DNA of 64,000 nucleotides from Citrobacter youngae ATCC 29220 (GTDB lineage Bacteria; Pseudomonadota; Gammaproteobacteria; Enterobacterales; Enterobacteriaceae), in contig NZ_GG730301.1 in NCBI RefSeq assembly GCF_000155975.1, positions 188,049 to 252,048 on the forward strand, given 5' to 3'. Below are positions 31,458 to 31,902 of this stretch, piece by piece. Position 1 is the stretch's first letter. Each line of letters opens with the position of its first letter. The translations under genes were made by a program, and so were the position numbers. A model generated the notes under the pieces. It saw nothing but the letters and a program-made list of their open reading frames with translations, was not told the origin of the DNA and ran no database searches.

Positions 31458-31476
31458 ATCGTGATCTCATTTTAAA

Positions 31477-31603
31477 TATACCCTTCATACTTCAAGTTGC
31501 TGATGCGTTGGCTGCGTTCACTCACCCGAATCACTTACTACAGTAAGCTCATCGGGATTCGTTAACTTGCCGCCTTCCTGCAACTCGAATTATTTTGGGT
31601 ATA
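31477..31603. repeat. ERIC (IRU) element, 127 bp, in the yqcE leader
   Basis: Read on the minus strand it begins TATACCCAAAATAATTCGAG, continues GTTGCAGGAAGGCGGCAAG, has the core GAATCCCGATGAGCTTAC and TAAGTGATTCGGGTGAG, and ends AACTTGAAGTATGAAGGGTATA-like. These are the hallmarks of the enterobacterial repetitive intergenic consensus. The 127-bp length is the full-size form. It would be transcribed as part of the yqcE mRNA and fold into a long stem. Confidence 0.9.
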
Positions 31604-31607
31604 GACG

Positions 31608-31655
31608 AAAAAAAGAGAAAAGTAAACCGCCTTTTCAGGTGGATTACTTTTCTCT
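31608..31655 (-). terminator. Intrinsic terminator in the yqcE-ygcE leader
   Basis: On the minus strand AGAGAAAAGTAA pairs perfectly with TTACTTTTCTCT, extended by GG/CC-rich pairs with one mismatch and one G-U to about 18 bp, with a 6-nt loop. Seven T follow (complement of A 31608-31614). It lies between the probable promoter region and yqcE, so it would stop transcription before the gene unless bypassed. Confidence 0.7.
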
Positions 31656-31703
31656 GGTCTCTAGTAATTGCAATTAGGAATAGCATGTCAGCGTGGGTTT
31701 TAG

Positions 31704-31719
31704 TGTGAGAATAATCACG
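31704..31719. promoter_or_regulatory. CRP-type site 1 in the divergent yqcE/ygcW region
   Basis: TGTGAGAATAATCACG matches TGTGA-N6-TCACA at nine of ten key positions. It is 57 bp from site 2, centre to centre. Confidence 0.6.
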
Positions 31720-31760
31720 CTTCGTAGCTTTACATTTAATTATGATGTGAAATAGTCATC

Positions 31761-31776
31761 TGTGATTACGATCACA
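31761..31776. promoter_or_regulatory. CRP-type site 2 in the divergent yqcE/ygcW region
   Basis: TGTGATTACGATCACA is a perfect match to TGTGA-N6-TCACA and a full palindrome apart from the centre. It probably drives ygcW (plus strand), yqcE (minus strand), or both. Confidence 0.75.
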
Positions 31777-31830
31777 TTAGAAGTGCGGGTGTTGTGCTAA
31801 AAATTTACGCCAGTTACCAGAGATAATGAG

Positions 31831-31877
31831 AAAGGTGACTTCCCTCTCGCAGGGGAAGTTGCCTTTTCTTTTTTTTT
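31831..31877 (+). terminator. Intrinsic terminator in the ygcW leader
   Basis: AAAGGTGACTTCCC and GGGAAGTTGCCTTT form a stem of about 14 bp (two G-U pairs) over an 8-nt loop, followed by TTTTC and nine T (31869-31877). It lies downstream of the CRP sites and 25 bp before the ygcW ATG, so it can act as an attenuator of the ygcW operon. Confidence 0.8.
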
Positions 31878-31902
31878 GCCTAAAAGAATTTGGAGCCAAA
31901 CT

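Follow-up and report, generated by a model that had tools for sequence, protein, structure and literature searches.

Divergent yqcE and ygcW leaders of Citrobacter youngae as probable GlpP-type conditional terminators under YgcP and cAMP-CRP

In antitermination by BglG, LicT and SacY, a ribonucleic antiterminator (RAT) element in the leader overlaps the terminator's 5' arm. A different regulator, GlpP, is described as antiterminating glpD, glpFK and glpTQ in Bacillus subtilis (PMC9604022, PMC7430163), with the glycerol 3-phosphate (G3P)-bound form reported to bind the antiterminator (PMC7430163). The locus considered here lies in a stretch of 64,000 nucleotides (nt) of Citrobacter youngae ATCC 29220 (contig NZ_GG730301.1, positions 188,049 to 252,048; hereafter the window), where the operons yqcE-ygcE and ygcWUSRQ diverge from one intergenic region close to ygcP, a gene of the GlpP family. 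An original prediction from the sequence had seen an intrinsic terminator in each of the two leaders and proposed that cyclic AMP (cAMP)-CRP starts both transcripts while YgcP releases both terminators. The present analysis supports that interpretation, amended by an antiterminator helix and by a narrower operon scope: each leader is very probably a GlpP-type conditional terminator, with cAMP-CRP starting both operons and ligand-bound YgcP letting the polymerase through.

Both predicted hairpins are real, that of ygcW being followed by T9 and lying 25 bp before the ATG, and that of yqcE being read from the minus strand (stem 31654-31615) and followed by T7 (Table 1). What had been overlooked is the promoter-side half of each element. 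Each leader contains a copy of the same 66-nt element, AGUUACU-RGAGANNNN-GAGAAAAGUAACUUCCC...-U8, in which the terminator stem starts with GAGAAAAGUAACUUCCC and the conserved AGUUACU-RGAGANNNN stands upstream of it. AGUUACU is complementary to AGUAACU within the 5' arm of the terminator, which gives an antiterminator that is mutually exclusive with it. A terminator scan of 801 bases returned five sites against 0.7 +/- 0.9 in shuffled sequence; one is the complete ygcW hairpin with its 16 pairs, and others represent parts of the two hairpins or their opposite strands, while the yqcE minus-strand hairpin was absent from the list and was recovered by folding. Alignment of the ygcW and yqcE hairpins scores 37 (maximum of 29 in 1000 shuffles), and the two copies are nearly identical within one intergenic region in L059, L068 and L089. 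No Rfam family was matched over either hairpin at E values up to 1 (window positions 30000-40000). The same hairpin and T run are kept in both leaders of 49/49 pairs, as the original prediction had required. These pairs comprise the window and 48 of 59 YgcP loci; L056, L067 and L085 were left out where the region runs off the locus, and the Firmicute loci L078-L084 and L086, in which yqcE is too diverged or the gene order different, were handled separately.

Pairing was first scored in an alignment (A1) for which 85 pattern matches were thinned at 93% similarity to 29 rows. The pattern required portions of the two antiterminator arms; it did not pick up the copies in L069-L076, and the row of the L089 yqcE leader is misaligned. 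Standard pairs occupy 91.1% of the antiterminator cells (18.2-54.2% with partners slid) and 92.9% of the terminator cells (55.3-66.4% with partners slid). In each helix three measures lie above all 500 shuffles: percentage paired, number of doubly changed cells and covariation score. At columns 10/29/64, U-A-U is replaced by C-G-C in five rows, all of them ygcW leaders, with the shared arm and both of its partners changing together, probably in one event. At columns 8/31, A-U is replaced by G-C in an enterobacterial ygcW leader (L053), in Listeria and in a Bacillus, in at least two events. Since the A1 pattern favoured the antiterminator arms, the pairing test was rerun on 98 leaders (89 distinct) selected solely by gene position and hairpin, regardless of the antiterminator arm. 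Among the distinct leaders, 7/7 pairs form in 50, 6/7 in 38 and 5/7 in one; shuffled upstream stretches reach 7/7 in 1.5% of cases and at least 6/7 in 20.0%. Exchanging arms between leaders lowers the mean number of pairs from 6.56 to 6.16, with 0/500 permutations reaching 6.56. GAG is found within 12 nt 5' of GAGAAA in 98/98 ygc leaders. In stepwise folding the antiterminator forms first (29 nt) and is displaced by the terminator after about 50 nt; the antiterminator by itself folds weakly, at -6.2 kcal/mol for ygcW and -1.4 kcal/mol for yqcE, so some factor should be needed to hold it.

A model of the element (R1), built from the 29 A1 leaders with the window copy included, was used with a cut of 50 bits. 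Two matches in the window genome exceed it, both at ygc genes, and a third (29.4 bits) reads the yqcE hairpin from the opposite strand. Among 246 genomes of the family, R1 exceeds 50 bits in 32, exactly the 32 with PF04309 at 200 bits or more; no R1 element was found in G027, G074 and G207, where PF04309 is above its cut-off and of non-YgcP type, or in G190, which holds a fragment with a stop. Four of 295 genomes of the order have PF04309 above the cut-off, the same four that have R1 above 50 bits, all already within the family sample. In G148, ygcP and the elements are on different contigs, so linkage is unnecessary for the co-occurrence, although this is no proof of action. Among complete Escherichia coli genomes, the leader is present in 5016/5426 and ygcP in 5068/5426; K-12 carries both elements (74.4 and 69.4 bits).

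Natural losses follow the same line. A ygcW-like gene was identified in 54/392 family genomes. In the first sample (n=33), 32 have YgcP together with R1 above 50 bits and one (G242) has neither. R1 was run on 12-19 kb around ygcW in the remaining 21: in each of fifteen, YgcP is close by and there are two elements (58-82 bits); six have no element above 50 bits, with no PF04309 match anywhere in their genomes. In total, the element exceeds 50 bits in 47/47 genomes with ygcW and YgcP and in 0/7 with a ygcW homologue and no PF04309 protein, the distribution that the original prediction had called for. One of the genomes without a PF04309 gene (G647) retains a relic of 35.6 bits directly before a solo ygcW (L292:8777-8837), in which the first GAGA has become AAGA, the arms pair poorly and the T run is reduced to TTTT. 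G714 retains a weak hairpin and T run, with the motif gone. In G655 and G669 a diverged yqcE-ygcE-ygcU-ygcW group is accompanied by neither YgcP nor the element; judged by sequence identity (61-63%), the ygcW of G631, G655 and G669 may be a paralogue. As a separate observation, a solo ygcW (73-78%) stands between queD and queE in L172, L294 and L304, with no other ygc gene in the fetched stretch.

It is improbable that these are plain constitutive leader terminators, or genes for small RNAs (sRNAs), that merely cut read-through or yield an RNA acting elsewhere, with no regulator. The terminators are strong, and a short RNA upstream of yqcE on the same strand was reported in MG1655 (Romero et al. 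2014, PMC4681348), where RNA-seq and a northern blot detected it and the authors classed it as an sRNA. A plain terminator, however, would not be expected to keep a promoter-side arm and loop pairing with the terminator arm, to occur in two copies per locus, or to be absent where YgcP is absent. The published short RNA fits the terminated yqcE leader. No account of a YgcP-controlled leader was found in the literature searched, and the papers found describe no function or regulation for ygcP, ygcW, yqcE or ygcE.

The element is not a fixed site but tracks operons. In G180, with the order ygcW-U-N-O-ygcE-yqcE-ygcP, elements precede ygcW and ygcE. Five Listeria loci have one element (38-39 bits) before ygcU, the first gene of ygcU-P-yqcE-ygcW-ygcE; Thalassobacillus has one before ygcW (66.8 bits); and Bacillus sp. 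DNRA2 and G272 have one before ygcU and one before ygcW (29-44 bits). R1 scores of 30-42 bits were rejected as evidence by themselves, with chance terminators reaching 41.6 bits in 101 Bacillaceae genomes (G287, with no ygc gene nearby). Matches in G200 and G160 (34.1 and 31.6 bits) and in G423 and G450 (36.3 and 33.7 bits) were treated as chance, and weak ones in L154, L160 and L167 are at unrelated genes. A single clade (69 rows, support 100/96) unites the YgcP proteins of the two phyla.

The relationship of YgcP to GlpP had also been assigned correctly. PF04309 (G3P_antiterm) is the only family matched by the protein, at 209 bits against a cut-off of 27, and the nearest solved chains are Listeria GlpP (3kts, E 1.4e-26) and 1vkf (E 1.2e-16). 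The YgcP and GlpP groups have 23 positions in common that are conserved at 90% or more in each, including K55, D62, K90, R107, D112 and E132, and the pocket-region residues of YgcP are conserved with GlpP. On the RNA side, 30 of 45 Bacillaceae glpD matches had loci for inspection, and in 20/30 of these a GAGA-N4/7-GAGA core is followed by a leader terminator. Core and T run occur together in 13/30 Bacillaceae PF04309 loci against 23/600 shuffles. The arms of the Bacillaceae glp leaders are modestly complementary (mean of 4.07 pairs, 3.62 when permuted; 16/1000 as high). Three further observations were made among PF04309 and glpD loci. A second branch in Enterobacteriaceae (26-27% identical to YgcP) has an FGGY kinase gene and a short-chain dehydrogenase/reductase (SDR) gene as neighbours (L178:5554-6093, L182:5798-6334), with no R1 element or core. 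A YgcP-related Bacillaceae group has a core of its own with arms GGGU/ACCC, 3' of the PF04309 gene (L221:2891, L222:2875, L223:2861, L224:2860, L229:2891). The Listeria grandensis glpD leader (L155, 1440-1620) has a hairpin and a GAGA-N-GAGA-like core that score only 20.8 bits.

These data also bear on the identity of the partner. That some other RNA-binding protein runs the switch, with YgcP merely its neighbour, is quite unlikely: the cluster genes travel together and the role of YgcP is deduced, but the 7/7 ygcW genomes without a PF04309 protein are also without an intact element, and the core is the same as in GlpP targets. Least likely is a riboswitch whose GAGA-N-GAGA loop binds the inducer itself, which would share the anatomy of mutually exclusive helices and a conserved unpaired loop, but the conserved part spans no more than about 29 nt with a weak helix, and the element has no Rfam match over the hairpins at E values up to 1, follows an antiterminator-family protein and has a core that recurs in GlpP-controlled glpD leaders. 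Two other candidates were rejected. The inverted repeats could be read as DNA operators, but in every case the T run lies 3' in the transcript, and only one of the arms is a partner for the upstream arm. CsrA recognizes a GGA motif, and the ygc core (AGAGA...GAGAAA) is mostly without GGA.

Several results weigh against conditional termination by YgcP. In A1, pairs with double change were matched in 207 and 285 of 500 shuffles and the pair-type count in 495 and 419 of 500; many of the double changes trace to few events, the innermost antiterminator pair is a C-A mismatch in 5/29 rows, and the A1 pairing figures lean towards the arms that its pattern favours. Folded by itself, the yqcE antiterminator reaches only -1.4 kcal/mol. 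The co-occurrence is partly the inheritance of one gene cluster among related genomes. At least nine of the 15 additional YgcP genomes appear to coincide with loci of the 59-locus set and are thus not new evidence of presence, whereas the seven losses are. Other PF04309 paralogues in Enterobacteriaceae (G027, G074 and G207; second copies in G002 and G230) carry no R1 match, and the loci of enterobacterial paralogues yielded no core. The glpD core is present in 18/26 genomes with PF04309 but also in 2/4 without it. The Listeria copies score below the best chance match in bacillar genomes, so most Firmicute copies are argued from position and intact arms. Finally, G155 and G243 have YgcP and a single collapsed hairpin (L174:10486-10552 and L173:12003-12069, respectively), flanked on each side by a T run, and no promoter region is left between yqcE and ygcW. 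Apparent frameshifts affect ygcW in L173 (G243) and ygcQ in L174 (G155), and the hairpin looks like the recombination product of two near-identical copies in a decaying cluster.

The two CRP-type boxes noted originally between the hairpins, the second of them perfect, were recovered in the window (Table 1). Scored on ten positions of TGTGAN6TCACA, with the best box taken within 75 nt upstream, boxes match at 8-10/10 in 98/98 leaders, and shuffles reach 8 in 2.9%. The centre of the box lies 42.5-44.5 nt from the element in 49/49 ygcW leaders and 41.5-43.5 nt from it in 49/49 yqcE leaders. TGNTA, resembling an extended -10, is found 12-14 nt 5' of the element in 49/49 ygcW leaders and 11-13 nt 5' of it in 48/49 yqcE leaders. 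By this spacing, transcription from a class II promoter (-41.5) would begin 1-3 nt 5' of the antiterminator, which would place the starts upstream of the elements and not downstream of the hairpins, the arrangement that would have spoken against the prediction. Sites predicted at both genes by PhyloScan are presumably CRP sites. The published PhyloScan table of predicted sites includes ygcW and yqcE (PMC1794230), the region between the two genes is among the cAMP-CRP targets found by genomic systematic evolution of ligands by exponential enrichment (SELEX) (PMC3105977), and a list of constitutive promoters gives predicted promoters for both (PMC3946193).

Table 1. Features of the yqcE/ygcW intergenic region and its flanking genes (window positions).
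Feature	Position	Strand	Detail
ygcW terminator/antiterminator element, 66 nt	31812..31877	+	model R1 68.6 bits (this copy among the 29 training rows)
ygcW intrinsic terminator (stem-loop and T9 at 31869-31877)	31828..31877	+	-23.8 kcal/mol
ygcW antiterminator 5' arm AGUUACC	31812..31818	+	7/7 pairs (one G-U) with 31834-31840
ygcW shared arm GGUGACU (antiterminator 3' arm and part of terminator 5' arm)	31834..31840	+	
yqcE terminator/antiterminator element	31608..31669	-	model R1 67.7 bits
yqcE intrinsic terminator (stem-loop and T7 at 31614-31608)	31608..31654	-	-22.5 kcal/mol
yqcE antiterminator 5' arm AAUUACU	31663..31669	-	6 pairs with 31648-31643
yqcE shared arm AGUAAUC of antiterminator and terminator	31642..31648	-	
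CRP-type box, ygcW promoter	31761..31776 (centre 31768.5)	+	10/10; -41.5 from predicted start ~31810
CRP-type box, yqcE promoter	31704..31719 (centre 31711.5)	-	9/10; -41.5 from predicted start ~31670
Putative extended -10-like TGCTAAAAA, ygcW promoter	31795..31803	+	
Putative extended -10-like TGCTATTCC, yqcE promoter	31677..31685	-	
ygcW-ygcU-ygcS-ygcR-ygcQ operon, proposed regulated	31903..37274	+	
yqcE-ygcE operon (major facilitator superfamily (MFS) transporter, FGGY kinase), proposed regulated	28654..31457	-	
ygcP, GlpP-family antiterminator gene, proposed regulator	37351..37926	-	PF04309 209 bits

In the mechanism proposed for conditional termination by YgcP, cAMP-CRP bound at -41.5 of the back-to-back promoters would start transcripts whose 5' end, to judge by the spacing, is the antiterminator itself. 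According to the folding predictions, the nascent RNA would form a weak AGUUACU/AGUAACU helix around a purine-rich GAGA-N3/4-GAGA loop. As the RNA lengthens, the terminator hairpin would invade this helix and the polymerase would stop, leaving an RNA of about 60-70 nt. The ligand of YgcP would be a small phosphorylated molecule, either G3P or, more likely in this cluster, a product of the FGGY kinase YgcE. Ligand-bound YgcP would recognize the GAGA-N-GAGA loop and hold the antiterminator, and the polymerase could then enter yqcE-ygcE and ygcWUSRQ. We infer the binding of YgcP, its ligand and the sign of control; what the data show directly is the element itself, how it is conserved, its compensatory changes, its occurrence together with YgcP and the spacing of the CRP boxes.

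The original prediction had extended the switch to the whole ygc block. Both divergent operons are covered, but ygcNOP is without an element, so the switch falls short of the block. The window resembles Klebsiella more than E. coli. The YgcP encoded in it is 99% identical to that of K. spallanzanii, and two long stretches of DNA match the window at 90-92% identity. Outside the switch, a repeat that we take to be an enterobacterial repetitive intergenic consensus (ERIC) sequence separates the yqcE terminator from the yqcE ATG (31477..31604); it overlaps sub-threshold Rfam matches (V_AS5, 46.9 bits; gathering 96), and a second copy occurs elsewhere in L031. The distance from terminator to ATG of yqcE is 157 nt in the window and L031 and 28-74 nt in the other 47/49.

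A wider view, which is put forward tentatively and with slightly less than even confidence, is that PF04309 proteins are ligand-diverse RNA antiterminators that recognize a GAGA-N-GAGA loop held by lineage-specific arms competing with the terminator. The YgcP branch would have left glycerol metabolism and would sense a phosphorylated intermediate made by YgcE; in enterobacteria it would be coupled to CRP promoters whose transcripts begin exactly at the antiterminator, and the K-12 sRNA would be a by-product. If conditional termination by YgcP is true, GlpP-type antitermination reaches Gram-negative bacteria, an RNA element new to Rfam is defined and an orphan published small RNA is reinterpreted. 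Two divergent sugar-type operons in E. coli and Klebsiella become a testable regulatory circuit. The ygc element supplies the cis sequence, the trans factor and a reporter assay, opening the way to screens for the ligand of YgcP and hence for the pathway's substrate.

Compared with the GlpP system of B. subtilis, the ygc locus has in common a PF04309 regulator, an intrinsic terminator in the leader and a GAGA-N-GAGA core, which in bacillar glpD leaders has the form GAGA-N3/5-GAGA and stands upstream of the terminator while overlapping it. It differs in that the ygc genes are not glycerol genes, the hosts are Gram-negative, the promoters appear to be class II CRP promoters and each of two divergent leaders has one element. 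The ygc arm is a helix of 7 bp (AGUUACU:AGUAACU), whereas the arms of the bacillar glp leaders differ and are mostly shorter. Control of glycerol genes was not found in the window genome, the only two elements above 50 bits being those at ygc genes; the non-glycerol targets concern the regulon, not the mechanism. With BglG, LicT and SacY, the locus shares an antiterminator overlapping the 5' arm of the terminator, but YgcP is a PF04309 protein, not a CAT-PRD protein, and has no domain for phosphorylation by the phosphotransferase system (PTS). As in the CRP-activated divergent catabolic promoters of E. coli, the boxes are centred near -41.5; unlike those promoters, the ygc pair adds RNA-level control at the 5' end of the transcript.
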